A stretch of 14,450 nucleotides of DNA. It comes from Desulfatitalea sp. Its GTDB lineage: Bacteria > Desulfobacterota > Desulfobacteria > Desulfobacterales > Desulfosarcinaceae. The first letter of the stretch is position 1. Every line of letters starts with the position of its first letter. The stretch is from assembly GCA_013041835.1 (NCBI GenBank), contig JABDRH010000036.1, positions 1-14,450 of the forward strand. The letters are read 5' to 3'. Shown one piece after another: positions 467 through 14,272 of the stretch. The notes beneath the pieces were generated by a model, which worked only from the letters and a program-made list of their open reading frames with translations, ran no database searches and had not been told where the DNA came from. The position numbers and the translations under genes are program-made.

Positions 467-2239
467 CTAAATTTCCCCCACAAAGCTTATGTCGACTTTC
501 GCCGCAGCCTCTGCCTGACGCAGCTCTTGCTCCTCAAGATAGGCCAGACTCAAGTCTTCGCGCAATGAGAGTTGTTCGTGACGCGGTTGCGGTTTATCAT
601 ATTTCCATCGGCTTACGACAAAATCGAAATTTTGCAGCTTTACGATTCCCGTGAGGTCTTTCAGCCGAGCGATATCAGCGGGCAGAAAAAGCGGTTCCAC
701 GTATTTTTTAGGACTCAGGTTGACGCCGTCCCGGTGATCATCAGGCCCCATGGAGACGCTGCGTTCCCACACGCGGTACTCGGTTTCCTTGATGCGTTTT
801 TTGGATTCGTATTCGGCTGACTCTCCCTCGACGGAAAATATGATCCGATTTTTCAGTGCCTCGTCCATTGAGTCCACCGTATCGCGGCCGTAGATGTTTA
901 TCGGTTGTTTTCGGTCTTGTGTGGCCATGACCAGTACGGAGCCCTTCGACCGGCCGGCGGTGCTCAACTTTTGGATGTTCAACTTGTTAAGTGTGCCGAA
1001 CTCATCCAAAACCGTATAAAACCGGCGCTGTTTTGAGTCGGGCATCGAAAGCAGGGTGCGTATCACCGTGTCGATGAAAAGGGACATGATCGGCCTGAGC
1101 GTGTGCCTGATGGACTCATAGTTGGTCACGAATACCAGCCCGCTGCCATTTTCCACCCATTTTTTTATCGAAAAATCACCCCCGATGCCGGCCATGTATT
1201 CAAAACATTTGCAGTACTGCATCAACACCGCCTGAAAGCCGTCGGCCTGCCTGGATTCTTTGCTGTCCCCGAGAAACTTTAGGGCCGCCTCAACCCCTTT
1301 GACGTCCGCGAGTATTTCTTTCATTTTCCCCGTGGGAGCGGACAGAAAATCCCACAAGTGCATGTTCGATAGTTGTTTGTGTTTGTAGTTGTGCCGCAGC
1401 CCGGCCGCAAAAAGCGATCTTGCGCCCTCTTCCCAAAATCCGCTGCCTTGCGCCGGCGTGGGCACCAAACTGTGCGCCAAGGCTTCTAAATCTGTGATTG
1501 ATTCGATGTCGTTGAAAAGTCGCCACCCGAGGCAGCGCTTGTCCACCACATTGAAAAGCAGATCCGTGTCCGGGTCATAAAACTCACTGATATAATCGCC
1601 TTTATAGTCGTAGATGAGGCCGTGGCCCAACCGTTTTTTTATCTCTTTTATGATCCATCGCGTCGCTTGCGTTTTGCCTGTTCCAGGACCGCCTATCATC
1701 ATCGTTCCGCGCGTTTCGTTATCTTCCGGCATCGCTATTTCACCCAGGGGAAAGCTTGCTTTCATCTTCTGTTCTTTCACCTGGTCCCAAAACGCATCCG
1801 TTGTGATCAGCTTCGATCCACGAATGTACTCTTTTTCATCGCGCTGCTCGGAGGTGCGGCCCAATTTTTTCACAACGATGCCGTGCAACAAATACACGGG
1901 GCTTGTGCCCAGCAAAAGATACAGCAAAGTGAGACTTTGCCGCTGTGCGTTGGCGCCCGTGGTGCCTACGATGGTTTTTATCGGCGTTTTCGTTTTACTG
2001 CCATTGGCGTTGAAAATATTGATTTTCGCATCGGGTAGCTTGATTGCCATGGCGGCCTTGGCCGCCCAATAGGATATGGCGTTACTGCGGTTATGATGCC
2101 ATGTGGCCGCTGATATCCCGATAAACAATGCCGCATGCACGACGATCAAAAACATGAAGATGCGGGCGTGCATCTTGGCATCCATGCGAACGGCGGAGGT
2201 CAATATCTCGAAAGACTCGTATGCTTTTCCCTTTGCCAT
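467..2239 (-). CDS. type IV coupling protein, VirD4/TraD family ATPase
   Basis: This 590-residue protein would couple the relaxosome to the mating channel at the inner membrane and drive DNA transfer by ATP hydrolysis. Two hydrophobic segments (about residues 27-47 and 102-123) form the N-terminal membrane anchor, with a periplasmic loop between them. The Walker A motif is canonical, GGPGTGKT at 183-190. Walker B is the FYTVLDEF segment at about 407-414, followed by a GRSKG stretch and a conserved ATQD at 439-442, as in TraD/TraG/VirD4 proteins. The length fits the family. The gene starts 15 bp after the barrel-protein gene; a GAGG lies about 13 bases before the ATG. The reading frame stops at TAG 469-467 just after a run of five G, and a different frame stays open for another 45 codons, so the C-terminus may be truncated by a frameshift. 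Family assignment is firm. Confidence 0.93.
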   Translation of the reverse strand: MAKGKAYESFEILTSAVRMDAKMHARIFMFLIVVHAALFIGISAATWHHNRSNAISYWAAKAAMAIKLPDAKINIFNANGSKTKTPIKTIVGTTGANAQRQSLTLLYLLLGTSPVYLLHGIVVKKLGRTSEQRDEKEYIRGSKLITTDAFWDQVKEQKMKASFPLGEIAMPEDNETRGTMMIGGPGTGKTQATRWIIKEIKKRLGHGLIYDYKGDYISEFYDPDTDLLFNVVDKRCLGWRLFNDIESITDLEALAHSLVPTPAQGSGFWEEGARSLFAAGLRHNYKHKQLSNMHLWDFLSAPTGKMKEILADVKGVEAALKFLGDSKESRQADGFQAVLMQYCKCFEYMAGIGGDFSIKKWVENGSGLVFVTNYESIRHTLRPIMSLFIDTVIRTLLSMPDSKQRRFYTVLDEFGTLNKLNIQKLSTAGRSKGSVLVMATQDRKQPINIYGRDTVDSMDEALKNRIIFSVEGESAEYESKKRIKETEYRVWERSVSMGPDDHRDGVNLSPKKYVEPLFLPADIARLKDLTGIVKLQNFDFVVSRWKYDKPQPRHEQLSLREDLSLAYLEEQELRQAEAAAKVDISFVGEI

Positions 2240-2254
2240 AATTACGAACTATCC

Positions 2255-2827
2255 TCAAAATTTGTACAAAAGGCTCAAGGCGCCTTTGAAGCCGGAAAAA
2301 ATATCGCCAATTCCGTATTGATACGATATGTCCGCGCCGATTTCGAACTTGTTGCTGATTTCCCACTCTTTGGACAGGTTGGCCATCGCCGAGAAAGCAC
2401 CTTCGCTGCGATCCGGGTAGCGCGTGAGCAGGTATCCGTCCGCGTCCGTAGTATGCCTTTTTTCAAAATCGGCCATCGTATACGCCAGGCCTGCACCGGC
2501 GTAAAAATTGAACGACCGGGCGACGCGGACGATCCGCTGCAAATATGCGCCCACTTGATAGCTGCTTACGCCCTGGCCTATGTTTTGTCCGAGTGGATCG
2601 ACTTCAAAATCATAGTAGTTGATCACCCCCATGATCCTGAGCTTGTTATTTAGATCGTGAATCGTTGTAACCCCGATACCATGAAAACCGCTGCAATCAT
2701 CCGTGCTGCCGTCCGGATCCGAGATGTCTAACATGACATAGGCCGGAGAGACGCCGATTTTTGTGTCCGCCGCGATAATTGCTGGTGATAAAAGCGCCAA
2801 AATAACAAAAAAGATAATCGTTCTCAA
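2255..2827 (-). CDS. outer-membrane beta-barrel protein within the transfer operon
   Basis: A 190-residue secreted protein. Residues 1-20 form a Sec signal peptide (basic MR, hydrophobic IIFFVILALL, then small residues before cleavage near IAA|D). The rest alternates polar and hydrophobic residues in strand-length runs, with many aromatic and Gly residues, and ends in LLYKF. A terminal Phe in an alternating pattern is the usual C-terminal signal for outer-membrane barrel assembly. Size suggests an 8-stranded OmpA/OmpW-like barrel. The start is TTG 2827-2825: its last bases overlap the VirB10 stop as TTGA, and a GAGGAG ribosome-binding site sits within the last VirB10 codons. It lies between virB10-like and virD4-like genes, a position often held by virB11. 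Roles in mating-pair stabilisation, surface exclusion or an outer-membrane pore are possible inferences; no family is recognised. Confidence 0.75.
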   Translation of the reverse strand: MRTIIFFVILALLSPAIIAADTKIGVSPAYVMLDISDPDGSTDDCSGFHGIGVTTIHDLNNKLRIMGVINYYDFEVDPLGQNIGQGVSSYQVGAYLQRIVRVARSFNFYAGAGLAYTMADFEKRHTTDADGYLLTRYPDRSEGAFSAMANLSKEWEISNKFEIGADISYQYGIGDIFSGFKGALSLLYKF

Positions 2828-3933
2828 AATGTCTCCTCTATTCTGATTTTTATTTCCTGTGGGTTAACGTAGATGATGTACGATGGTTCGTTCAAAGTCT
2901 TGTCGATTTGCGTTTCTTTTTCATCAAGCATGTTTTCTGCGGCGGCCTCCACGCCGGCGCCGACAAGGGTTCCGTTGTTGAGCATGGGGGCCAGCTCTTT
3001 TCCCACTCCGAATGCACCGGCGGCAAAGCTGCGCTGCGCCGCTTTGCCGTCGGTTGACACGGCGCCGACCAAGCCGGCGGTATTGTTGATGTCCATGACG
3101 AACCCCTTGATTGAAAACTCTTCGCTTCGAGGGGCGGGGGTGATCCCTTTCACGACCAGTAGCTCCAGGCGCTTAGAGGCTGGATTCAGCGATTTTTTGG
3201 CAAACAGCGTGCTACCCCTGGGCAAGACCTTAAAGTCGCCGTATACGTCCTGCGTGATGGTTATTTCGGTCAAGTTTTGTTCGACGTTGGTCGTCACCTG
3301 CGGCAGCCGTGCCCGAATCTTGGTGCCCAGCCGTATCCCGAAATACGGCCCTTTTCTTTTCTCCGACCGAACCGATTGAAACCCGCCCACGCTCATTTTC
3401 CCAGCAGTGGGGCTTGCTTTCCAGGAGGGCGGAATATATCGATCGTTTTTGCGTTCCCGCCGGCTGCGATCCGGCCGGCCCGGATCGTTGACCGGCTTGG
3501 CGGTCTTGGCCGCGCTGCCGGGGCTCGCTGTATTGCTGTTGGGCGGAGCGCCGACGCCCGTGGACGCCATATTTTCCTTGCCGTCCGTTCCGGCGGCCGG
3601 CGCCGGGGCGGGTGCCTTGGCGCCCTTGCCGTCCGTATTTTCCGCCGGGGGTGATTCCGATGATGGATCGGCAGACGCGTTGGGAGCATGCCTGCCTTTT
3701 TTTTCCGATGTTTCTTGCCCGCCGCCAGAAACGGGCTTTCCGGGCCGTTTTTTTAACAGCAGGTGCATTTGATCGCTTTTTAGCTCACGGCTGTGCTGAT
3801 AGTGTTCCTGCTCGGATGGGTTGAGCAACCTGCGCAGCTCGTTTCCGTCTATTGGCTTTTCCGCAGCATGCGTCCCCGAAACAAAAAGAAACGCTGTCAC
3901 TATCGCCATTGCCGGCTTAATCGTTTTCACCAT
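2824..3933 (-). CDS. VirB10/TraB-like type IV secretion channel protein
   Basis: A 369-residue protein of the VirB10/TrbI/TraB family, which forms the core-complex scaffold and the outer-membrane cap. The recognisable VirB10 C-terminal domain spans about 195-369, including GIRLGTKIRARL, a central GDFKVLPRGS and a following SIKGFVMDI segment, as in the family. Residues about 66-165 are a Pro/Ala/Gly/Lys-rich linker that would span the periplasm. The N-terminus is unusual: residues 1-23 look like a cleavable Sec signal peptide (MVKTIKP, a short hydrophobic core, then SGTHA|A), rather than a cytoplasmic domain plus an inner-membrane anchor. The gene overlaps the preceding one by 7 bp (ATGGTGA) and has GGAG about 6 bases upstream. 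The family call rests on the C-terminal domain and gene order. Confidence 0.85.
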   Translation of the reverse strand: MVKTIKPAMAIVTAFLFVSGTHAAEKPIDGNELRRLLNPSEQEHYQHSRELKSDQMHLLLKKRPGKPVSGGGQETSEKKGRHAPNASADPSSESPPAENTDGKGAKAPAPAPAAGTDGKENMASTGVGAPPNSNTASPGSAAKTAKPVNDPGRPDRSRRERKNDRYIPPSWKASPTAGKMSVGGFQSVRSEKRKGPYFGIRLGTKIRARLPQVTTNVEQNLTEITITQDVYGDFKVLPRGSTLFAKKSLNPASKRLELLVVKGITPAPRSEEFSIKGFVMDINNTAGLVGAVSTDGKAAQRSFAAGAFGVGKELAPMLNNGTLVGAGVEAAAENMLDEKETQIDKTLNEPSYIIYVNPQEIKIRIEETF

Positions 3934-4847
3934 TGAAGCTCCACCTTGCCCTTGTTGCTGATCAGTGTCATCTTGGCGTCCTGCGAGTTCAATATACTGG
4001 CGTCGTTGGTAACGACAAACCCTTTGACGGTTTCGTTTTCCTTCACCTTGAGCGGCATTTCAAACTCAGACAGCAATGGGTAGCTTTGCTCGCCGTTCAT
4101 TTTTTCCAGGCTGATATTATCGATGTAAAGCGGCTCAATCGCGCTATCGTTGGTAGCCTCGATTGGAATGACATGGATGTTTCCATAGGTGATGATTTTA
4201 TCGGCATAGAAGATGACCCGGTCCCCGTTGCTCAGCTTGAGCTTTTGCTCTTCTTTGATGTTGCTGGTGTCCCGGCCCGAGGTTGCCATGCGGCCAACCA
4301 GTTTCAGGGCCATTTTTTCGGCCCGCCGATCCAGTTCGGATTCTTTGAGTTTGTACTCTTCCACCAACGCGGTTTGACGACGTTGCACGGCCCTTTCGAC
4401 AAGTTCGAGTTTGTCTGCATCGCATAGTTCGAAAATGACCGTCGAATAGTGGGCCGACCGGCTGAATGACACCCTTAATGTCAGGTTGAAATGAAACCCG
4501 GCCACATTGACGAACGCATCGCCGAGAGTCCCTTCGCTTTCGGTGTCGGCCTTTTTGATTTTGTACACGATGAAATTCTGACCCGCTTGCCAAAATAGCT
4601 CGAAGGCACTGTCATTGGTCAGCAGCCCGGTATAGGGCAACTCGACGGAGTTTTCGTCGAGGACCCACGGAAATATAACTTTGACCCCCCTGCCCGGCAG
4701 TATGTTGACGACCAATTTTGTGACCGGATTTCGGATCTGCACGATCCTTTCTTTGGGCATGTCCTGATCCTGGTCGGCTTGGACCGAGACCGCCACAACC
4801 AACAGCCATGCAACGGCGAGCAATGTAATTTTTTTACTTAAATTCAT
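3927..4847 (-). CDS. VirB9/TraK-like type IV secretion core-complex protein
   Basis: About 306 residues from ATG 4847; a TTG at 4859 in the same frame would add four residues, but the ATG gives a cleaner signal peptide (MNLSKK, then LLAVAWLLVVAVSVQA|D). The mature N-terminal half (IRNPVTKLVVNI, GRGVKVIFPWVLDE, then VAGFHFNLTLRVS) follows the beta-sandwich pattern of VirB9/TraK N-terminal domains. A charged, probably coiled-coil segment occupies about 150-190, and a beta-rich domain forms the C-terminus. It would sit in the periplasm and bridge VirB8 and the outer-membrane VirB10 ring. The start overlaps the end of the VirB8 gene by 14 bp and the Shine-Dalgarno is weak, suggesting translational coupling. 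Gene order (B8, this, B10) is strong support; sequence similarity alone is moderate. Confidence 0.7.
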   Translation of the reverse strand: MNLSKKITLLAVAWLLVVAVSVQADQDQDMPKERIVQIRNPVTKLVVNILPGRGVKVIFPWVLDENSVELPYTGLLTNDSAFELFWQAGQNFIVYKIKKADTESEGTLGDAFVNVAGFHFNLTLRVSFSRSAHYSTVIFELCDADKLELVERAVQRRQTALVEEYKLKESELDRRAEKMALKLVGRMATSGRDTSNIKEEQKLKLSNGDRVIFYADKIITYGNIHVIPIEATNDSAIEPLYIDNISLEKMNGEQSYPLLSEFEMPLKVKENETVKGFVVTNDASILNSQDAKMTLISNKGKVELQW

Positions 4848-5478
4848 AATAGTCCACAACTTTTATACCGGATGTGTTGACCGAGGATATGGCCACCATT
4901 TCAATGTCCACGAGCATTCGAAACGCCACTTTGTTGCGATTTACGAGTATTTCGGACGATACGGTGTTGCGGTCGCCGATTGCGACGTCACCGGCCAGCT
5001 CGACCTTTGCGTACGGGCCTTTTACTTCTACGATCCTGGTCTCTTTTTCGTTAAATTCCAGGTTGGATATGCTATTGGTGGATTTGATGTCCCGTGCAAG
5101 GTTGCTCTCTTTCAGATATGCGATCCGTTCCTTGCGCAGTTTTTCGGACATCATGTTCAGGGCCATGGCAAAATCGTCGTATACCGTCGCGCTGTTGAAA
5201 CTTAAGTGATACTGCGCAAACCGCTTGGCGCCGGCAATCAGTTCCTGATTGCCGCGAAAGGCCGTGGTCTGGTACTCGCCGATCACTTCGCCGGTGTTCC
5301 GGTCAACCACCACGACACGCTCGGGCTTAAATGCGATCACCGCTGTTATGATGCCAAATGACGCCGCCTGGACGATGATCGCTATGATGGCCCATTTCAG
5401 CCGGCGCATCAATTGCCGCTCGCGCTTTTCTTTCGGGCCGGGTTCGATGGTGGGCGTGCCGGCTTTTTGGTGGGTCAT
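4834..5478 (-). CDS. VirB8/TraE-like inner-membrane channel protein
   Basis: A 214-residue bitopic protein. A basic cytoplasmic tail (residues 1-28, KEKRERQLMRRLKW) leads into one transmembrane helix (about 29-50), followed by a periplasmic domain in which VVVVDRNTGEVIGEYQ resembles the start of the VirB8/TraE fold. VirB8 proteins act as assembly factors linking the inner-membrane platform to VirB9 and VirB10. The start codon overlaps the preceding stop as ATGA, with AGAGGA about 9 bases upstream. Length is normal for TraE (about 190-220 residues). Position between a VirB6-like and a VirB9-like gene agrees with the call. Confidence 0.8.
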   Translation of the reverse strand: MTHQKAGTPTIEPGPKEKRERQLMRRLKWAIIAIIVQAASFGIITAVIAFKPERVVVVDRNTGEVIGEYQTTAFRGNQELIAGAKRFAQYHLSFNSATVYDDFAMALNMMSEKLRKERIAYLKESNLARDIKSTNSISNLEFNEKETRIVEVKGPYAKVELAGDVAIGDRNTVSSEILVNRNKVAFRMLVDIEMVAISSVNTSGIKVVDYYEFK

Positions 5479-6569
5479 TTTCCCGGTCCTCTATTGTTCG
5501 GGTTCAACGAGCTCAAAGGGCTTTCGTCTTTCAGGCCCGATCCGCCCGCCGCGCCATCGCCGCCTTGCAAATTCGTCACCCCTCTTTTTATCAGGCTAAA
5601 AGCACTGCCGGCGCTATTTTGGAAGCCTTTTCCGGCCATCCCGCCCATAAGTTTGATAGCTGGCGTGCCCACTTTTTTGCCTAGCGCTTTGGACTGCCTG
5701 CTAATCATTAACGCAGTTGCGGCCGCTGCGCCGGTAAACGGCGCCACCAGGCCGGAAGCCATGTTTTCATTGTTGGCGATCTTGATGGACAGCATCGGCG
5801 CGGCTACGGATATGGCGCTCATTACCATATTGCATACGAAAAAAATCAGATACATATTGCTTCTTGATATCGCTTTTTCCGCAGAGTGCTTTGGCAAAAC
5901 ACTTTCGCTCCATCCATGAAAAATAGGAATAATCAACATGAAAATAGTGGCCTCGACTAGCGGCCAAAACATTATGGCCATAACGGATCTTACCCACCCG
6001 TTTTTGGTATTCAGGTGCTTTGACGTCATGGTCGGAACGACCACAAGGCCCCAAATGTAGACCATCGAAAAACAAATAGCGTATCCTAGCCGCAGGAATA
6101 TATACAAGCAGATCATCAATAAAAAACTGAAATAAAAAAGCAACTGTGAGATGGCTTCCTGGCCGAAATCCAACAAGTTGATGACGTTGAAACCAAATTC
6201 AATCACGGCATTGTCCGCTTTTACCAAATCCGCCGCTTTTAAAAAACCTTGATACTGCGATATGACCATTTTAAGGCCGGCCTCGCTGTAAAAAAGGGCG
6301 CACATAGCAGCATGAAATTGCATTACCAAAACCCCGAAGCTGGCATATAAACCGATCCACATGATGGACACAAGGGTGTCCTTGACCGCGTTGGCCATGG
6401 ATGTTCCTTCGCCGATGCTGGCCGTGGATTCTTCTAAGTAACGCAACGAAAGACTGGCCGCGAAAAAAATAGGCACCGCCCACATGAGGTAAAACGATGC
6501 AACCTCGGATATTTTGCCGTAAATAGGGTCTGGTTTAAATACATCGAGTAATTTAATGAAGATATCCAT
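5475..6569 (-). CDS. VirB6/TrbL-like polytopic inner-membrane channel protein
   Basis: A 364-residue protein with hydrophobic segments at about 23-44, 65-94, 138-178 (long enough for two passes), 195-217 and 238-262, so five or six transmembrane helices, then a soluble Gly/Ser-rich C-terminal tail (about 285-364). This layout fits VirB6/TrbL-type proteins, which form the inner-membrane part of the channel. There is no signal peptide. The ATG at 6569 lies 2 bp after the VirB5-like stop, and the 3' end overlaps the VirB8 start (ATGA). Sequence motifs in this family are weak, so the assignment rests on topology and on position between VirB5-like and VirB8-like genes. Confidence 0.7.
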   Translation of the reverse strand: MDIFIKLLDVFKPDPIYGKISEVASFYLMWAVPIFFAASLSLRYLEESTASIGEGTSMANAVKDTLVSIMWIGLYASFGVLVMQFHAAMCALFYSEAGLKMVISQYQGFLKAADLVKADNAVIEFGFNVINLLDFGQEAISQLLFYFSFLLMICLYIFLRLGYAICFSMVYIWGLVVVPTMTSKHLNTKNGWVRSVMAIMFWPLVEATIFMLIIPIFHGWSESVLPKHSAEKAISRSNMYLIFFVCNMVMSAISVAAPMLSIKIANNENMASGLVAPFTGAAAATALMISRQSKALGKKVGTPAIKLMGGMAGKGFQNSAGSAFSLIKRGVTNLQGGDGAAGGSGLKDESPLSSLNPNNRGPGK

Positions 6570-6571
6570 GA

Positions 6572-7255
6572 CTATTTATCAGCCATCCTTTCCAACACGT
6601 CGATGTAATCTTGCTCTAAATTTTCATTTTCCAGCTCGGTTTCAGTCTTTTCCATTTCTTCTCGTATCCGCCGCTCTTCGCGGGCAAGCTCCAGGGCCGC
6701 AATCAGCGCACACGATGATGCTGCGGATGCTTGCGTTTCTTTATCTGTTTTCGCGCCGGAGGCCAGGTCCTTGGCTTCTCCGGTTTTGGCTTTTCTCAGA
6801 GCGTTGAATCGCTCTAACGCGGCTACCTGGGAAGCCAGTTTGCGTTTGGCGTTTACCGAGGATAACGATGGGTCGTTTTCGAATCGCCGTTCTATCTCTT
6901 TTGCGAGCATTTTGAATTTTGTTTCATCGCTTTTGCCGTCCATGTTGTCGAGCAAGGTCAGGTTGCCGATGTCGTGCTTGATCTGGTCAAGCTCTCTTTC
7001 CAGGTTGAAATTTCGCGCAAAGTCGTACTCTTTTTTGACCATGACGGCCGTTTCCCTGACCTTGATCATATTTTCGTTCTGGATTTTGGCCTCTCTGATC
7101 AGTTTTAGCTGTTTCTCATACTGCTCTTTAAGGGTTTCGTAGATCACGGTCAGCCTAGCGATCACCGCCGCATCGCCGGCGCCGGTCACGTCGGCTTGGG
7201 CCGGCAGCGCCGACAGACAGAATATGCCAACAATCAGTGCGTAAATGGCTTTCAC
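6572..7255 (-). CDS. periplasmic coiled-coil protein, VirB5-like by position
   Basis: A 227-residue secreted protein starting at GTG 7255-7253, with AAAGGAA about 9 bases upstream. Residues 1-21 are a signal peptide (MKAIYALIVGIFCLSALPAQA|D). Most of the mature protein is charged and helical, with heptad-like stretches (ARLTVIYETLKEQYEKQLKL; EERRIREEMEKTETELENEN), so long coiled coils are likely. VirB5/TrbJ-type proteins are helical periplasmic or pilus-tip subunits placed between virB4 and virB6, exactly where this gene lies. Sequence similarity to VirB5 is not evident to me, so the label is mainly positional. One Cys remains in the mature part (SSCALI). Confidence 0.6.
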   Translation of the reverse strand: MKAIYALIVGIFCLSALPAQADVTGAGDAAVIARLTVIYETLKEQYEKQLKLIREAKIQNENMIKVRETAVMVKKEYDFARNFNLERELDQIKHDIGNLTLLDNMDGKSDETKFKMLAKEIERRFENDPSLSSVNAKRKLASQVAALERFNALRKAKTGEAKDLASGAKTDKETQASAASSCALIAALELAREERRIREEMEKTETELENENLEQDYIDVLERMADK

Positions 7256-7273
7256 GTTTGACCGTTCCTTTCG

Positions 7274-9643
7274 TTAGTTGGCCGATTTTAGCTGTTTCAG
7301 CCGCTCAAGGCGTTGGAATATGTCGCCGGTCTCAGCCGGTATCTGAGATTTGAAGCTTAAATCCAGCGGGCTGGTGGAACAGGTATTGAGCACGATTTCG
7401 GGAAAACTCAAAAACAGATCGTAATATTTGTCTTGTACCTGACACAGCGACGGGCGCCAGTTTAGGGTTTCAGGGTTGGGAAAATTTTTCCACCGTTGAA
7501 GCGGCGTTTTGGGTATCTGAAGGATCTTGGCCATTTCGTCGTGATCCTCTTTGCGGTACATCAGATTGCGCAATGTGGTGCTGGCGACGATCTCCGGGTC
7601 CATGGTGCGTAGCTCATGAAGGCCCTGCGTGATTAGATCCAGGCCCGCGTAATCCTTGCGCCCCATGCGGCTGATCTGGCTGCACAGGTTGGTAACCACT
7701 TCGGGGGCAATGCGTTCAAATACATGTACTTCATCCATCTCAACGCGAGCGGGGTTGGTGCTGCTGAAAAACGCCATCTGCGCATATCGAAGCGACAGGG
7801 AGGTCAGGCAGAAAATCAAAAGTTTGGGGTCGGCGTCAAGGGCGCCTTTGAGATCCACGCCGCAAAGCTCCTTGGATAAAGACAGGTTCCCGTCCATCGT
7901 GAATCGACGGCCGACGGACGAATCCAAAAAACTGCTCAGGTTGTCGGCCATGCGTTTGGCCGCGTCCTTTTGGGGCTGGCTGTTGTATTGCGTCTGGTCC
8001 AGTGATTGGCAGTAGTGGTCCATGCGAGGCGCTGTTTTGCCTTCTATCGGCGTTCGATACAGGTTTTGCAACGCCTCTTCGGCTGCCGCCCGCTGGTGGC
8101 TGCTCAATTGCGTTTTTCCGTCGGTCAACAGATAGGCCAAGGCGCTTACCGTTCCCGCGCACAGCTTGATGGGGACGGGGGTTTTCCCCTCGCCGCTGGT
8201 TAGATCGTAATCCGGCAGCGGGTTGATGACGTGTTTGTCCGGATCAAACTTTACAAAGGTTTTGCCAAATCCCTCGACCACCCATTGATATGTGCTTCCT
8301 TCGTTGCTGCCCACTTCGACGATGAACCAGTCCAGGCCCAGTGGATACGTTTCGATGATCTGACAGCCTTTGTCCACCCCTTTTCCGGCGCCGGTCATGG
8401 CCACCGTGAAACCATGGTTGACGGTGTGTTGCATGATCGACAGGCCCACCAGTTGCCCGGAACTGGTTACCCGCAGGTACTCCGGATCGAGTGTTCCCTT
8501 GTCGTAGACGATCGCAGGGGCCATGTTGGCCACCTGCCAGGTTTCGTCCTGCCTTAAAAATCCTGATATGGCGCCGTGGCCGGGTTGGCCGGCTCGGAAA
8601 AAATGCGATTGTATGTCGTCGTGACTCTTCGCAAGCCCTTGGTTGTAAAAGACCCAATCCTCTATCTCCTTGCTCATGGCCTGGATATGATCGGGGGGTC
8701 CGTGCAGATGAAGGATAAAGGCGTTTTTGAATATGGATAGATTGTTTTGGGCCACATACGAGGTGAAGTCTTCACGGTCCTGGATGGCTCTTTGCCGGTA
8801 TTTGGTGCCTTTTCTGGACTGCTCGACGCTTTCTTTTTCGCTGGCCTGGCTGTGTTTGTCGATCAAACGACGGGTGTCTGTCGGCACGACGATTTGACAG
8901 GCGTGCATTTCACAAGATATGGCCGAAAGATTCAAAAACCACGCCGGGTCGGCATCCGGATAGTGGTACAATAAAATGACTTTTGTGTATTCGCCGTCTA
9001 TCTTTACCATCCCGTTTTCTTGATGCGGGGCTTGGTAGATCACCTGGTTTGCCAAGTCCTCTCTAAAATCCAACGGGTATTGGTAGCCGCGTTTATAACC
9101 TTTGCGCCAATAACTTTGGATGACGCGTTTGAAATAGTGTTCCGGATCGGCGAAGCTGCCGGATATGATGCGTTTTAGGTTGTCGGCCGTTTTTTGCAAG
9201 CGTTCGGCGTTTTTGACCTGGTCTTTGAACGCGCTTTTCCGACTCCATTGGGATAAAAGATTGGCTTGCGGCTTGCGGTACAGTACGATGGCGCATTCGT
9301 TGTTCCACCCAAATTGCGATAGATGTTGCGCCATGGCCTTGCGGACGGGTTCTCCGAAATGCCGGCCTCTTTTTATCTTGATGTTGTTGTTTAGGTAATT
9401 CTCGGCTTGCCGCGTGTCTTTTTCACGCCAATGATGAAACTCGGCCACGCAGTCGTCCAGGCCTTCGATGAATTTATACAGGGCTTGGTATTTGGCGTGC
9501 TGTTGCTGTTTGTCGTCCATTTCGCAATCCAAACCGTCCCAATTGAGCATGCACGACACCGCACCATCATTGTGGCCGATGATTTCGTTGGATAAAGGCG
9601 TTTCCCAATAGTAATAATTACTGTACTTGTTACGTTTTTGCAT
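7274..9643 (-). CDS. VirB4/TraC-like secretion ATPase with an altered P-loop
   Basis: A 789-residue cytoplasmic ATPase of VirB4/TraC length, expected to power pilus biogenesis and substrate transfer at the inner membrane. The N-terminal half (about 1-380) corresponds to the family's N-terminal region and contains no membrane segments. The ATPase core begins around 395. Walker A is read as AMTGAGKG at 415-422: Lys421 is present, but the next residue is Gly instead of Ser/Thr, and the first position is Ala. Walker B is VEMDEVH at 634-640 (Asp637, Glu638), followed by ISRMGRKDYAGLDLITQ, which matches the conserved arginine-containing and glutamine sensor regions of VirB4 proteins. The start ATG follows the VirB3-like stop by 3 bp. 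Family call is confident; catalytic competence is open. Confidence 0.88.
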   Translation of the reverse strand: MQKRNKYSNYYYWETPLSNEIIGHNDGAVSCMLNWDGLDCEMDDKQQQHAKYQALYKFIEGLDDCVAEFHHWREKDTRQAENYLNNNIKIKRGRHFGEPVRKAMAQHLSQFGWNNECAIVLYRKPQANLLSQWSRKSAFKDQVKNAERLQKTADNLKRIISGSFADPEHYFKRVIQSYWRKGYKRGYQYPLDFREDLANQVIYQAPHQENGMVKIDGEYTKVILLYHYPDADPAWFLNLSAISCEMHACQIVVPTDTRRLIDKHSQASEKESVEQSRKGTKYRQRAIQDREDFTSYVAQNNLSIFKNAFILHLHGPPDHIQAMSKEIEDWVFYNQGLAKSHDDIQSHFFRAGQPGHGAISGFLRQDETWQVANMAPAIVYDKGTLDPEYLRVTSSGQLVGLSIMQHTVNHGFTVAMTGAGKGVDKGCQIIETYPLGLDWFIVEVGSNEGSTYQWVVEGFGKTFVKFDPDKHVINPLPDYDLTSGEGKTPVPIKLCAGTVSALAYLLTDGKTQLSSHQRAAAEEALQNLYRTPIEGKTAPRMDHYCQSLDQTQYNSQPQKDAAKRMADNLSSFLDSSVGRRFTMDGNLSLSKELCGVDLKGALDADPKLLIFCLTSLSLRYAQMAFFSSTNPARVEMDEVHVFERIAPEVVTNLCSQISRMGRKDYAGLDLITQGLHELRTMDPEIVASTTLRNLMYRKEDHDEMAKILQIPKTPLQRWKNFPNPETLNWRPSLCQVQDKYYDLFLSFPEIVLNTCSTSPLDLSFKSQIPAETGDIFQRLERLKQLKSAN

Positions 9644-9646
9644 GGC

Positions 9647-9919
9647 TCACTTTTCGATAAGCGATTCGACGCTGTAACACTTGGATTCGCGCTTGTTCAT
9701 CCATTGGGCGCGCAACATCAGCGCATCTTTGTGATGTATCCCGCCGTAAGCGGCGATAATAAGACATATTATGCTCAGGGCGATGCAAACGATTTGAAAT
9801 GCAGGGATGGGAAAAAGTGCAAATATAATCAGAATGACGGCCGCTGATCCAAAATCAAACACGGCTGCCGGTATGCCGAATCTTTCTCGGGGCCTTATGC
9901 GATGGTTGAATGCCGGCAT
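9647..9919 (-). CDS. VirB3/TraL-like small membrane protein
   Basis: A 90-residue protein from ATG 9919. The frame is open further upstream to 10189, but that part is a shadow of the pilin gene in another frame. The chosen ATG lies 2 bp after the pilin stop, with AGGAT as ribosome-binding site. A short basic N-terminus with an RPRERFGIP motif precedes two closely spaced hydrophobic segments (about 24-40 and 43-60), then a hydrophilic tail. VirB3/TraL proteins have this size and hairpin topology and always accompany VirB4. Position between pilin and VirB4 genes gives the main support. Confidence 0.75.
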   Translation of the reverse strand: MPAFNHRIRPRERFGIPAAVFDFGSAAVILIIFALFPIPAFQIVCIALSIICLIIAAYGGIHHKDALMLRAQWMNKRESKCYSVESLIEK

Positions 9920-10494: not shown

Positions 10495-12024
10495 TCAAAG
10501 CTGTTGTTCTTCTTCCAAGACAATTTCCAAATATTTGCGCAATGTGTTCGCGTTCTTGGTGTCCAGCTGCTCTCCTTTTTCCAGGGCCGTTGCAATGGCT
10601 TGCTTTTTACGTTTTGTATATATCTTTTCGACAGCTTTCTTTATTTTCGCATTGTTGATGTCTGGCTGTTTGAGTAGCTCTAAGGCCGTTGACTCGATTT
10701 CTTCTTTTTGAGCTTGCCGTTGTATTTGTTCCATGCTTTTCGCACGCTCAAGCTGCTTGGCTTTCCATTTACCGTAATGTTCCAGGTCTATTTGAACCAT
10801 GGATTTGTAGTTTTCTGGTTTGCCCACCGTGCCGCCGTTTTTTTTCATGATGCTGTAAATCAGATCAGCGGCGCTTTTAACGACCTGAGTGCCCTGTTTA
10901 AGAACTTGCCAACGTACAAAACACAGATTGTTTAAGATCGTTTCCAATTCAAGACCGAACTCGTTTTTCCAGCTGGCCACCTGGGTGGGGCCTACCTGGC
11001 GATCCAACCAAAATTTGTATTCGGGATCCGATTGCATGATATCCGCTATTGTGGCTTCGGTGTCTGATTGGCCGTCGCGGCCAGTAGTAGTTTTTTTAAT
11101 TAAAAAACTACTACTACTATTTATAAGAGAGTGCCCTTCAGAGTGCCCTTTAGAGTGTCCGCCAGAGTGCCCGCCCGCCAGAGTGCCCTTAAGAGTGTCC
11201 GCCAGAGTGCCCGCCAGAGTGTTAAGGCTTTTCCCGGCTTCCAATACCTCGATGTGCATCCCTTGCCATTGCCCGATGCGAATCTTTTTAGCCTTTGTAA
11301 TACAGCTTTTTCTTTCGAGGATGGCCAAAGATTTTCTAACTGTACCGTATGGGACGCCAGTTGCGGCGCAAATGTCTGCCAATCGTGTCATTCCTCCGGG
11401 TGTTGTTTTGAGGTATTGGAGCACTGCGGCTTGGTTTTTGGTTATCCAAAAATAGGGATCATTTATGGGACTGCCCGTTTGTGTGCCCTTCAGACTGCCC
11501 TTTAGAGTGCCCGCCGGAGTGTTACGTTGACTGTCCGCCAGAGTGTCCGCTACACTGTCCGCCAGAGTGTCCGCTACACTGTCCGTCAGAGTGTCCGCCA
11601 GAGTGTTAGAGTGCCCGTCAGAGTGCCCGTCAGAGTGCCCGTCAGAGTGCCCGTCTTTCCGCTTATGATACTGTTCCGATCCTGATATGATCCTGATATG
11701 ATTCTGATGATCAATATGTTGTTTTAACGATGTTGTGGTTTCACCATCGTGTCCCAATGGTGTCCCTGTTCCGTCCCTGCCCTGTTCCGTCCCTGCCCGG
11801 TCCTTGTTTTGATCAGCGGTGTCAACATATTGTGTCTCTTGAGGGCTTTTCAAGGCAGCACCTTCTGCGATTGCGGCCTTTTGGTTTTGTCCTGCTGGAT
11901 TTATTTCAGGTTGAACGATTACCTTTTTTAAGATCTCTTTTTCCGCAACCACTTCGGTTTCGGATCGGTTTTCTTTCCGTGTTGCCCTGATTCGATCCGC
12001 TAAACTCATTGGTTTTGCAGACAT
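10495..12024 (-). CDS. winged-helix DNA-binding protein with repeat-encoded linkers (candidate replication initiator or ParB-like partner)
   Basis: A 509-residue protein from ATG 12024, chosen for the AAGGAG 8 bases upstream, inside the end of the parA gene; the frame extends to 12063 without a better start. The N-terminal part is charged and probably disordered (about 1-120, with LADRIRATRK near the start). Residues about 124-185 are low-complexity DGHS and then ADTL repeats. A winged helix-turn-helix occupies about 192-262 (GMTRLADICAATGVPYGTVRKSLAILE, here as helix pair, then a basic wing). Residues 267-299 are again TLAG/GGHS repeats. A helical, Lys/Glu-rich domain fills about 317-509. 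It lies 2 bp downstream of a parA, the normal place for a centromere-binding partner; a replication initiator carrying its own iterons is the main alternative. I recognise no named family. See the two array features. Confidence 0.7.
   Translation of the reverse strand: MSAKPMSLADRIRATRKENRSETEVVAEKEILKKVIVQPEINPAGQNQKAAIAEGAALKSPQETQYVDTADQNKDRAGTEQGRDGTGTPLGHDGETTTSLKQHIDHQNHIRIISGSEQYHKRKDGHSDGHSDGHSDGHSNTLADTLTDSVADTLADSVADTLADSQRNTPAGTLKGSLKGTQTGSPINDPYFWITKNQAAVLQYLKTTPGGMTRLADICAATGVPYGTVRKSLAILERKSCITKAKKIRIGQWQGMHIEVLEAGKSLNTLAGTLADTLKGTLAGGHSGGHSKGHSEGHSLINSSSSFLIKKTTTGRDGQSDTEATIADIMQSDPEYKFWLDRQVGPTQVASWKNEFGLELETILNNLCFVRWQVLKQGTQVVKSAADLIYSIMKKNGGTVGKPENYKSMVQIDLEHYGKWKAKQLERAKSMEQIQRQAQKEEIESTALELLKQPDINNAKIKKAVEKIYTKRKKQAIATALEKGEQLDTKNANTLRKYLEIVLEEEQQL
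11083..11126. repeat. AT-rich near-perfect palindrome beside the second 12-bp array
   Basis: Positions 11083-11115 read AGTAGTAG, seven T, AATT, six A, CTACTACT: a near-perfect inverted repeat with one unpaired base and arms of about 14-16 bp. It continues in AT-rich sequence to the first 12-bp unit at 11127. In the protein it is only a poly-Ser/Thr stretch with KK. Next to an iteron-like array, such a tract is a candidate DNA-unwinding element or cruciform; as RNA it would form a strong hairpin inside the coding region. Confidence 0.7.
11127..11226 (-). repeat. 12-bp repeat array B, eight units, inside the winged-helix gene
   Basis: Eight units start at 11127, 11139, 11151, 11163, 11179, 11191, 11203 and 11215. 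On the plus strand the consensus is CAGAGTGYCCKY, with the core AGAGTGYCC in units 1-7 and a diverged end in unit 8. After the unit at 11163 there is a 4-bp extra CCGC (11175-11178). This changes the translated repeat from TLAG/TLAD to GGHS, so one DNA repeat is read in two frames. Iterons of a replication origin or a centromere array are the best explanations. Confidence 0.85.
11467..11654 (-). repeat. 12-bp repeat array A, about sixteen units, inside the winged-helix gene
   Basis: Units follow every 12 bp from 11467, with the same plus-strand core as array B. The best copies are CAGAGTGTCCGC and CAGAGTGCCCGT. Some units carry ACACTG or GACTG variants; two alternate to give an exact 23-bp repeat (11539-11561 and 11563-11585). 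One unit at 11599-11606 is truncated to 8 bp, lacking CCGC, and this changes the translated repeat from DGHS to ADTL/ADSV. The units nearest the winged-helix coding region are the most diverged, as in the older edge of a growing array. Confidence 0.85.
11678..11708 (-). repeat. short 11-bp tandem repeat upstream of array A
   Basis: GATCCTGATAT occurs twice in tandem (11678-11688 and 11689-11699), followed by a partial copy GATTCTGAT (11700-11708). The 11-bp period is one helical turn and is not a multiple of three, so the encoded residues differ between copies. It lies within the winged-helix gene. Confidence 0.6.
11766..11797 (-). repeat. 16-bp tandem duplication in the winged-helix gene
   Basis: CTGTTCCGTCCCTGCC is present twice without a gap (11766-11781, 11782-11797). 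Sixteen is not a multiple of three, so the same DNA encodes AGTEQ in one copy and GRDGTG in the next. This is another sign that this linker grew by DNA duplication and not by selection on the peptide. Confidence 0.65.
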
Positions 12025-12026
12025 GT

Positions 12027-12824
12027 TTAGGCTCCTTCGGTGTGCGTCAAGAACTCTTTGCACAGCGTTCTAAAGGCTTGGGCTCCTTTGCTGCTTGGGG
12101 CTGAGGTGAAAAGGGTCGAACTTCGTAGGGATTCGTTTGTTTGTATGTGAGAGCTGGTTGGTATTGTAGATTTAAAAACATTTTTAGCGCCAAACCGTTC
12201 TTTGGCGTCTTCAATATTGGCTGTGTGTGCTCCCTTTCGCCGGTCTACGCGATTGATTAGTATTTTTAACAGGTTCAGGTCATATCCGTCTTCTCTGATG
12301 GCGTTCATGAGGTCTAAAACGCCTTTTATGCCTTCGAGAGAATTCCCGCTGCCTGCATCCATGGGGACAATGAGCATGTCGGATGCGTACAGGTTATTAT
12401 TTACGAATATCGAGAGGGTAGGGGGGCAGTCGATGAATGTGTAGTCGAACTTTTCTTTCGCATATTCCCGAATCGCGCTTCTCAGAAAAGTGTTGCTTTC
12501 GGGAAATTGCTGAGCCATGGGTATTTCGAGTCCTGAAGTTTCGGTGATGTTGGGTAAAATTAGCAGGTTGGGATGGATCGTTTTGTATATGTATTCTGTT
12601 GGGTCCACGACTTTCTCAGGTGCTGCCAGCACGTCGTATAAGCTTTTGTTGATCTGTGTTCCCGTTGAAAGCAGCGCCCTGCTTGAATCGCTTTGCGGGT
12701 CGCCGTCTATAAGAAGCACCCTTTTTCCTTTTAGGGCTATTGCGGCTGAAAGATTGACTGAGGTAGTTGTTTTTCCCGTTCCTCCTTTGTAATTAGAGAC
12801 GGCTGAGATAATCCCTTTACTCAT
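12027..12824 (-). CDS. parA: ParA/Soj-family partition ATPase (first copy, paired with the winged-helix gene)
   Basis: A 265-residue ParA-type P-loop ATPase without an N-terminal helix-turn-helix domain, so the short type. It has the deviant Walker A KGGTGKTT at 13-20, the A' motif LLIDGDPQ at 37-44 and Walker B YTFIDCPPT at 128-136, all intact. ParA proteins form ATP-dependent dimers on the nucleoid and move plasmid copies by interaction with a centromere-bound partner. The start ATG 12824 has an excellent AGGAGG site. The winged-helix gene starts 2 bp after its stop, which makes that protein its likely partner. A second ParA lies upstream in the window, so this copy may serve replication control or a separate partition system. 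Confidence 0.92.
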   Translation of the reverse strand: MSKGIISAVSNYKGGTGKTTTSVNLSAAIALKGKRVLLIDGDPQSDSSRALLSTGTQINKSLYDVLAAPEKVVDPTEYIYKTIHPNLLILPNITETSGLEIPMAQQFPESNTFLRSAIREYAKEKFDYTFIDCPPTLSIFVNNNLYASDMLIVPMDAGSGNSLEGIKGVLDLMNAIREDGYDLNLLKILINRVDRRKGAHTANIEDAKERFGAKNVFKSTIPTSSHIQTNESLRSSTLFTSAPSSKGAQAFRTLCKEFLTHTEGA

Positions 12825-13194: not shown

Positions 13195-13195
13195 T
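13176..13195 (-). terminator. hairpin directly after the RHH gene, possible transcription end
   Basis: ACTCTGT-GGTGCT-ACAGAGT forms a 7-bp stem that begins within the stop codon of the RHH gene on the minus strand. No T-tract follows in the direction of transcription, so it is not a standard intrinsic terminator. It includes a TCTGTGGT motif shared with the promoter region of the same operon, so it may instead be a protein-binding site. Confidence 0.3.
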
Positions 13196-13518
13196 TATAG
13201 AAGTCTTTTGTAGATTTTCCCGCCGGATAGTTTGCGGATGTCTTCCAGGGCGAAGTTGACGAGGGCCTCCATAAGGGCTGATTTGTTCTTGATGGGCAGG
13301 CGCTCTTTTTTTAGGGTGTGGTAGATGTCGTCGAATTTTTCGATGGTATCGATTCCGAAATAATAACTGACTTTTCTTTTGATTTGCGCCTCTGTGGTGG
13401 TGTCACTCTGTGGTTCTGTAGAGGCTTTCTTTTTGGCTTGGGCTGAGGTTTTGCCCATTGCTGCGGATAGTGGGTCGGCGTCGTCAAATAAGTCTGGGAC
13501 TCGTGGTTTACTTTCCAT
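13195..13518 (-). CDS. ribbon-helix-helix DNA-binding protein, likely ParG-like partner of the upstream ParA
   Basis: A 107-residue protein with a flexible, charged N-terminal tail (about 1-45) and a C-terminal ribbon-helix-helix domain (about 47-95: a beta-strand RKVSYYFG, helix IEKFDDIYHTLKKE, then NKSALMEALVNFALEDI). ParG and related type Ib centromere-binding proteins have this layout: the tail stimulates the ParA ATPase and the RHH dimer binds operator/centromere repeats. The ATG at 13518 overlaps the end of the upstream parA by 11 bp, with AAGGA about 10 bases before it, so the two are translated together. A repeat motif (13391-13419) lies inside its own coding region, in the tail-encoding part. 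Confidence 0.78.
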   Translation of the reverse strand: MESKPRVPDLFDDADPLSAAMGKTSAQAKKKASTEPQSDTTTEAQIKRKVSYYFGIDTIEKFDDIYHTLKKERLPIKNKSALMEALVNFALEDIRKLSGGKIYKRLL

Positions 13519-14272
13519 TGCTTAATATCCTTTTTACCAGGTTTTGGTAGTCTTGCGCACCTTTGCTGGTGTTGCTGTATTCGAAGATGGTTTTTTTGTG
13601 GCCTACGGATTCGGATACTTTGACGTTTTTGTTGATGGGGTCCAATACGATTTGCCCGAAACGTTTTTTGAGTTGGGTTAGTATTTCGTGCGATTGCCTT
13701 GTGCGGGTGTCGAACATGGTCGGCAGGATGTATTTGATGTTCAGGTCAGGGTTTACCTGTTTTGCCGAGTCTACGTATTTTACGTAGTCTTTTACGCCTT
13801 CTATGTTCGCGGCTTCAAGTCCCACGGGGCATAGGATGTCGTTTACCGTGCTCAGGATGTTTACGCTGAGTATGTCCCACCCTGGTGCACAATCGAATAT
13901 GACGAAGTCTACCATGCCTTCTTTGGGGTTTAGCCTTTGGTTTAAGATCCTTTCTTTGCCTTCGCTGTGGCTGTGGAGCCAGTTGGTTAGCTCTACCAGC
14001 ATCATTCCGCCGCTGAGCAGGAATATGTTGTGCCTCGCGGAGCTTAGGCATTCCATTTTTTGGACTGGGTCACCGTGCCGGTCGTGGCCGGTGATAAATT
14101 CGTATAGGCCGTGTTTTGCGGTCACGCCCATGAATTTTGCGCAGTGGCCTTGGGTGTCGCAGTCCACCAAAAGTACGGTTTTGCCGTTTAGTGCAAGCCC
14201 GTGAGCCAGGTTTATGGCGGTTGTGGTTTTGCCGACACCGCCTTTGGCCATTCCGATGGCCAGTTTTTGCAT
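13508..14272 (-). CDS. parA: ParA/ParF-family partition ATPase (second copy, paired with the RHH protein)
   Basis: A 254-residue short ParA. The deviant Walker A motif KGGVGKTT is at 10-17, the A' motif LLVDCDTQG at 34-42, and Walker B FVIFDCAPG at 123-131. It has no N-terminal DNA-binding domain, as in type Ib ParF proteins, and is followed by an overlapping RHH gene, the typical ParG position. It would segregate the element by dynamic nucleoid or polymer binding. The ATG at 14272 has a strong AAAGGAG site. It is distinct from the other ParA in the window in sequence (for example AKGGVG against YKGGTG) and in partner, so these are two independent modules and not a recent duplication. Confidence 0.92.
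   Translation of the reverse strand: MQKLAIGMAKGGVGKTTTAINLAHGLALNGKTVLLVDCDTQGHCAKFMGVTAKHGLYEFITGHDRHGDPVQKMECLSSARHNIFLLSGGMMLVELTNWLHSHSEGKERILNQRLNPKEGMVDFVIFDCAPGWDILSVNILSTVNDILCPVGLEAANIEGVKDYVKYVDSAKQVNPDLNIKYILPTMFDTRTRQSHEILTQLKKRFGQIVLDPINKNVKVSESVGHKKTIFEYSNTSKGAQDYQNLVKRILSNGK

Follow-up and report, generated by a model that had tools for sequence, protein, structure and literature searches.

Known systems and the candidate locus

The gene for the phage lambda initiator O contains iterons followed by an AT-rich region, and in the TubZRC and AspA partition systems a winged-helix (wHTH) protein sits on a repeated or extended DNA site. The closest parallel to the gene described here is provided by the RepA_N theta plasmids related to pSK41, in which a wHTH lies N-terminal to a conserved C-terminal domain and the repeats lie inside rep. 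According to the sections of PMC5703833 drawn on here, the origin of pSK41 is placed inside rep and its wHTH in the N-terminal domain, RepA_N plasmids have a separate C-terminal domain that is conserved within genera, and in pPR9 the RepA_N domain and the origin have been swapped, the C-terminal domain remaining >97 % identical. In repABC replicons the origin is found inside repC near an A+T-rich region and a ParA-type gene belongs to the same operon; the cited sections report no iterons for repC (PMC3155836).

The window, by which we mean the whole stretch of 14,450 bp analysed in this study, is one contig of a 693-contig assembly; it may belong to a plasmid and carries a gene for a conjugation coupling protein. 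The gene of interest occupies 10495..12024 of the minus strand and encodes 509 residues from an ATG at 12024, its end being at 10495. This ATG, 2 bp past the stop of parA (AAA_31; 12027..12824, minus strand), was taken as a likelier start than the GTG at 12063, which yields 522 residues in the ORF list; the gene thus follows parA, as given in the preliminary description. No Pfam or NCBIfam model covers the product beyond generic hits. Read in coding direction, the gene comprises repeat array A (11468..11655), an iteron-free region encoding the wHTH (11230..11439), array B (11128..11227), an AT-rich inverted repeat (11083..11115) and the code for a C-terminal helical domain (10498..11076), all on the minus strand; the last was modelled by AlphaFold2 with a mean pLDDT of 95.8. 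Structural and sequence matches of the wHTH are generic, with a weak resemblance to AspA, the top PDB sequence match, and to TubR, which is among the structural matches.

We consider that this gene probably encodes a theta-type plasmid replication initiator and holds its own iteron origin. The wHTH would bind the iterons, the assembled protein would open the AT-rich inverted repeat as the unwinding element, and the helical C-terminal domain would recruit host replication proteins; the repeats may set compatibility between plasmids, and the upstream ParA would serve partition.

As in theta iteron replicons in general, a direct-repeat array stands beside an AT-rich region, as far as sequence features alone can tell, and as in systems pairing ParA with a wHTH centromere-binding protein, a ParA gene is adjacent. 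The gene and its relatives resemble lambda O in having iterons and then an AT-rich region, and repABC in that the proposed origin lies inside the initiator gene with parA next to it. They differ, however, from each of these systems. From RepA_N they are distinguished in that PF06970 finds no match here, arrays stand on either side of the wHTH, parA is the direct neighbour, the phylum is a different one and the inverted repeat consists of 3- or 4-bp units. Compared with lambda O, there is no PF04492 match, hits to O-like PHROG families are weak, the genes are plasmid-borne with parA and the arrays again lie on both sides; compared with repABC, iterons are present, PF03428 is not matched and no ParB gene intervenes between parA and the gene. 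Unlike TubZRC and AspA, the family has an extra conserved C-terminal domain, its site is inside coding sequence, and several of its plasmids show a GC-skew minimum at that site. On the best reading, the family is proposed to work like RepA_N or lambda O, yet it matches neither family model; what distinguishes it from RepA_N, lambda O and RepC alike is the placement of arrays around the wHTH, an inverted repeat of short units and linkage to parA.

A family on plasmids of Thermodesulfobacteriota

Similarity searches place the candidate initiator in an unnamed family of Thermodesulfobacteriota plasmids. With about 8000 candidates scored, at least 14 relatives were detected by protein database search and at least 47 by the family profile, and tblastn located the family on plasmids of Desulfosarcina, Desulforapulum, Nitratidesulfovibrio, Solidesulfovibrio, Desulfohalobium and Desulfobaculum. 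Of 60 near genomes five match; one of these is the genome of the window itself and another holds a false relative, so that three others remain. The false relative (L013, G009:C28) is a weak match (E 3.6e-4) which by eye appears patatin-like, with a long SDIPSEIP peptide repeat. Within the class, 23 of 389 genomes match the profile; here too the own genome is counted, and several of the matches are weak and partial (E 1e-7 to 1e-9). In all nine plasmids examined, the gene preceding the family gene encodes a ParA or AAA-family ATPase, and the family gene itself carries the annotation hypothetical or helix-turn-helix protein; for pDsulf-L2-2, tblastn matched an open frame longer than the annotated CDS. 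Weak PHROG matches were to an O-like replication protein for 7 of 53 members (best E 0.0013) and to a DnaD-like loader for two members (E 1.2e-5). No description of the family was found among the listed titles and abstract openings from the open PMC literature. Transposon insertions are spread over pDV1 according to PMC10102598, and nothing on the family gene was found in the cited part of that account.

Two family genes (L056 and L057) occur on contigs labelled Anaerohalosphaeraceae and Chloroflexi, by transfer or wrong binning, and L057 is close to the Desulfobacca gene L058 in both the wHTH and the C-terminal domain. A member of 1125 residues (L018, 3148-6525 of NZ_CP116248.1) is carried by a pDV-type plasmid of N. 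vulgaris strain L2 and shows scattered GTCACC-type units instead of tidy arrays.

Repeats maintained as DNA

About 24 copies of a 12-mer in two arrays flanking the wHTH had been described at the outset. At ≤2 mismatches to the plus-strand core AGAGTGYCC (GGRCACTCT on the coding strand) we count 23 copies (15 exact; 16 at ≤1 mismatch), of which 15 lie in array A, before the wHTH in coding direction, and eight in array B, after it; a weaker copy at about 11516 (GGAGTGTTACGT) makes the 24th. Spacing inside the arrays is 12 bp, apart from one spacing of 16, one of 24 at the weak copy and one of 8. As the 16-bp and 8-bp spacings change the codon phase, the 12-mer is read in two phases, with 8 copies giving GHS-type and 15 giving TLAD-type peptides, in agreement with the earlier observation that one DNA repeat is read in two frames as differing peptides. 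Sites at ≤1 mismatch number 17 in the gene, with 16 located in the arrays; 200 base shuffles gave 0.25 such sites on average (maximum 2) and 500 synonymous-codon shuffles 4.9 (maximum 11). A two-copy pattern (≤2 mismatches) had 17 matches in the assembly to which the window belongs (G000, 86.9 % complete), every one inside the candidate initiator gene, and a reversed control pattern gave two matches.

Two further repeats, absent from the preliminary description, lie on the minus strand of the window. Upstream of array A, 2.8 copies of an 11-mer (11678..11708; coding strand ATATCAGGATC) resemble the iteron of a relative, L011, whose wHTH differs, and are possibly a relic of an earlier specificity; 2.2 perfect copies of a 16-mer (CCCTGTTCCGTCCCTG, 11764..11798), unrelated to the 12-mer, are possibly another relic.

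Relatives have repeats of their own, with periods from 8 to 13 bp: 8 bp in pHRM2a, 11 bp in L011 and the BuS5 plasmid, 12 bp in the window and Do28_1, and 13 bp in pDsulf-L2-2. The comparison was made on 30 genes with hand-set wHTH positions, four of 34 having been excluded (L018 because of its 1125 residues and scattered units, L028 and L057 because contig ends truncate them, and L010 because its reading frame is split). On testing the commonest 9-mer of each gene against 60 synonymous shuffles, it was found to exceed all of them in 25 of the 30 genes, where it has to be noted that here, as in the skew and Mantel tests below, the sequences are related and so not fully independent. The exceptions are L012, L016, L025, L049 and pDMC2; in L016, from the BuS5 plasmid, the word scored is A-rich and is not the iteron. 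The commonest 9-mer occurs in at least two frames in 28 genes, all except L037 and pDMC2, and in all three frames in 20. It flanks the wHTH on both sides in 28 of the 30 and lies inside the wHTH code in three; in pDMC2 and pDRET01 no copy was found after the wHTH.

Since a period not divisible by 3 rules out a peptide repeat in a single frame, these results indicate that the repeats are kept at the DNA level across the family, as had been suggested for the window; on two plasmids, moreover, repeat copies are also found outside intact family genes. Neither homologues without repeats nor a fixed peptide with varying codons turned up, and the repeat changes together with the wHTH. It could be argued that the repeats work as peptide, or have expanded neutrally as tandem repeats in a disordered linker, with no function as DNA: the model has low confidence where the array B peptide lies (pLDDT <50 for residues 100-132 in a 325-residue piece), five of the 30 genes are equalled or surpassed by at least one synonymous shuffle, and L037 and pDMC2 use one frame only. 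We regard this account as very improbable, as in 28 of 30 genes with different repeats the same word recurs in several frames and gives different peptides, the repeats covary with the wHTH, and the codons at the junction following array B are nearly fixed.

The copies outside intact genes occur on the BuS5 plasmid and on Do28_1. Downstream of the intact BuS5 gene lies a second family-gene copy broken by stops and frame changes (L016, 9331-10116 of NZ_CP087953.1), the start of which is annotated as a short hypothetical CDS (9330-9584). Both arrays persist in it, with an 11-mer array at 9403-9534 and further copies ahead of the inverted repeat, which is long, of the AGT/ACT type and located at about 9797-9835; the intact BuS5 gene has no such inverted repeat. 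On Do28_1, three duplicated segments that precede parA contain related 12-mers; the gene table, known to be incomplete, lists no gene there. Such extragenic copies would fit a function in cis, and recent decay and segment duplication could be an alternative account of them.

A short-unit inverted repeat after array B

Adjoining array B in the window is the AT-rich inverted repeat (11083..11115) with perfect 14-bp arms, AGTAGTAGTTTTTT..AAAAAACTACTACT, located within the code for SSSSFLIKKTTT and likewise absent from the preliminary description. In one class of the family the corresponding feature is AGTAGTAGT..ACTACTACT, which encodes SSSS..TTT shortly after array B. Sixteen of 32 genes fit this peptide pattern; in these, the junction serine is AGT in 63 of 64 cases (76 of 476 in the remainder of the genes) and the junction threonine is ACT in 48 of 51 (89 of 324 in the remainder). 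Other members have arms of 4-bp units (for example AGAT/AGAA or AGTT) around an AT-rich centre. By our own reading of the per-gene rows, short-unit arms form the best inverted repeat in 22 of the 30 genes at p≤0.03 (≤1 of 30 shuffles each), the p values in L017 and L012 being 0.07 and 0.10. The scan of 30 genes found no such repeat in L016, L037, pDMC2 and the D. bizertense gene, and in L019 and L054 a different inverted repeat was scored instead. In pDMC2, pDRET01, pDMC1 and D. bizertense the AT-rich stretch is weak or lacking, at 61-72 % AT over 36 bp. TAG trinucleotide repeats occur in one class, other members having 4-bp units, and DnaA boxes are inconsistent; the DnaA-trio consensus is given as 3'-GAT-5' in the cited part of PMC8287927.

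Repeat and wHTH change together

Across the 30 genes, array similarity correlates with wHTH identity (r 0.54), and the partial correlation given C-terminal identity, 0.52, was reached by none of 2000 permutations. The correlation with C-terminal identity is 0.185 (p 0.0035) and falls to a partial value of 0.087 given the wHTH, which is not significant (p 0.066). In 20 of 30 genes the array most similar to array A is array B from the same gene, and in four more it ranks second; the worst ranks are 16, 22 and 30. Such covariation is what would be expected if the wHTH reads the repeats, and it supports the preliminary prediction that the encoded wHTH does so.

Five genes from a single Desulfobacca assembly (STE_27; L051, L052, L053, L054 and L058), each on a contig of its own, illustrate the pattern: their wHTHs are 25-49 % identical and their C-terminal domains 79-97 % over 150 residues (74-97 % over the last 180), and their repeats are mostly dissimilar, an exception being L053/L058 with a repeat similarity of 0.36 at a wHTH identity of 0.31. 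A second exception is L012/L036 (0.35 at 0.24). Conversely, the window and Do28_1 share a repeat core (0.42) and have wHTHs 52 % identical, with C-terminal domains only 27-29 % identical. These comparisons indicate that the C-terminal domain can persist while the wHTH and the repeats change.

Origin or centromere

The preliminary description had treated an origin and a centromere as equally possible; this balance is not borne out, and an origin is favoured by the GC skew, the AT-rich inverted repeat, the presence of other partition genes and the fact that none of four replication families was matched. In four of nine complete plasmids the minimum of the cumulative GC skew falls within the family gene, and in a fifth it is 0.95 kb from the gene midpoint (Fisher p 3e-7), a signal that is weakened by masking. 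At E≤0.1, none of ten records (G000 and the nine plasmids) matched RepA_N (PF06970), Phage_rep_O (PF04492) or RP-C (PF03428). Sensitivity is limited for the first, which gave signal in three of 14 control genomes and none above the cut-off, and for RP-C, above the cut-off in none of the 14; Phage_rep_O was above it in one. Rep_3 (PF01051) was matched on none of five plasmids at E≤0.01, nor on the four further plasmids and G000 at E≤0.1, with two of the 14 control genomes above the cut-off in both searches. Some other replication-like genes are present on the plasmids, which slightly lowers the odds of the origin reading. As for partition, pDRET01 has a separate ParA-ParG pair, Do28_1 has a ParB_N protein, absent from the other four of the five plasmids searched, pHRM2a has a ParB by annotation only, and pDMC1 has a second ParA.

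A centromere role nevertheless keeps some weight, owing to the constant parA neighbour and the weak resemblance to AspA and TubR. In its exclusive form, the wHTH protein would be a ParB-like partner of ParA, the arrays would be the partition site and some other, unrecognised gene would replicate the plasmid. We judge this quite unlikely, given the plasmid-wide skew minima at the gene, the inverted repeat adjoining an array, the generic nature of the wHTH matches, and the second partition pair of pDRET01 and the ParB_N protein of Do28_1; the four replication families unmatched on nine plasmids are counted on the same side. Alternatively, the same protein and arrays might serve as origin and centromere at once, with ParA engaged, which could account for the two arrays and the fixed parA neighbour. 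The constant linkage and the lack of ParB_N on four of five plasmids agree with this, as does the evidence from GC skew and inverted repeat for an origin; however, contact between ParA and the wHTH protein is hypothetical, and the additional partition genes of pDRET01 and Do28_1, the annotated ParB of pHRM2a and the second ParA of pDMC1 speak against it, so that we hold such a dual role to be unlikely.

Beyond the preferred reading of an initiator gene with an embedded iteron origin, we put forward, as a tentative possibility, that the family represents an undescribed replicon class in sulfate reducers, including the pDV-type plasmids of Nitratidesulfovibrio vulgaris, with initiator, two iteron arrays and unwinding inverted repeat in one gene, the wHTH being swapped together with the repeats and the arrays acting also as the ParA centromere. 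If true, plasmids whose likely initiator bears no annotation beyond hypothetical protein, such as the large ones in N. vulgaris, a model sulfate reducer, would gain a replication system, and bacteria for which genetic tools are scarce would gain candidate origins for vectors. The family would also amount to a natural collection of wHTHs paired with their DNA sites, where a single stretch of DNA is both site and code, making recognition directly testable; multi-frame repeats flanking a DNA-binding domain may also suggest a search route for embedded origins.

Other genes in the window

A likely type IV secretion/conjugation cluster extends over 467-9643 of the window. The Pfam search gave no match in 7274-9643; the gene at 467-2239 encodes a conjugation coupling protein (TrwB_AAD_bind, E 1.5e-80), and the remaining genes of the cluster show a likeness to VirB components by eye only. 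A second ParA-like gene, at 13508-14272, brings the number of ParA genes on the contig to two; the small gene that comes after it (13195-13518) gave no convincing match in Pfam.
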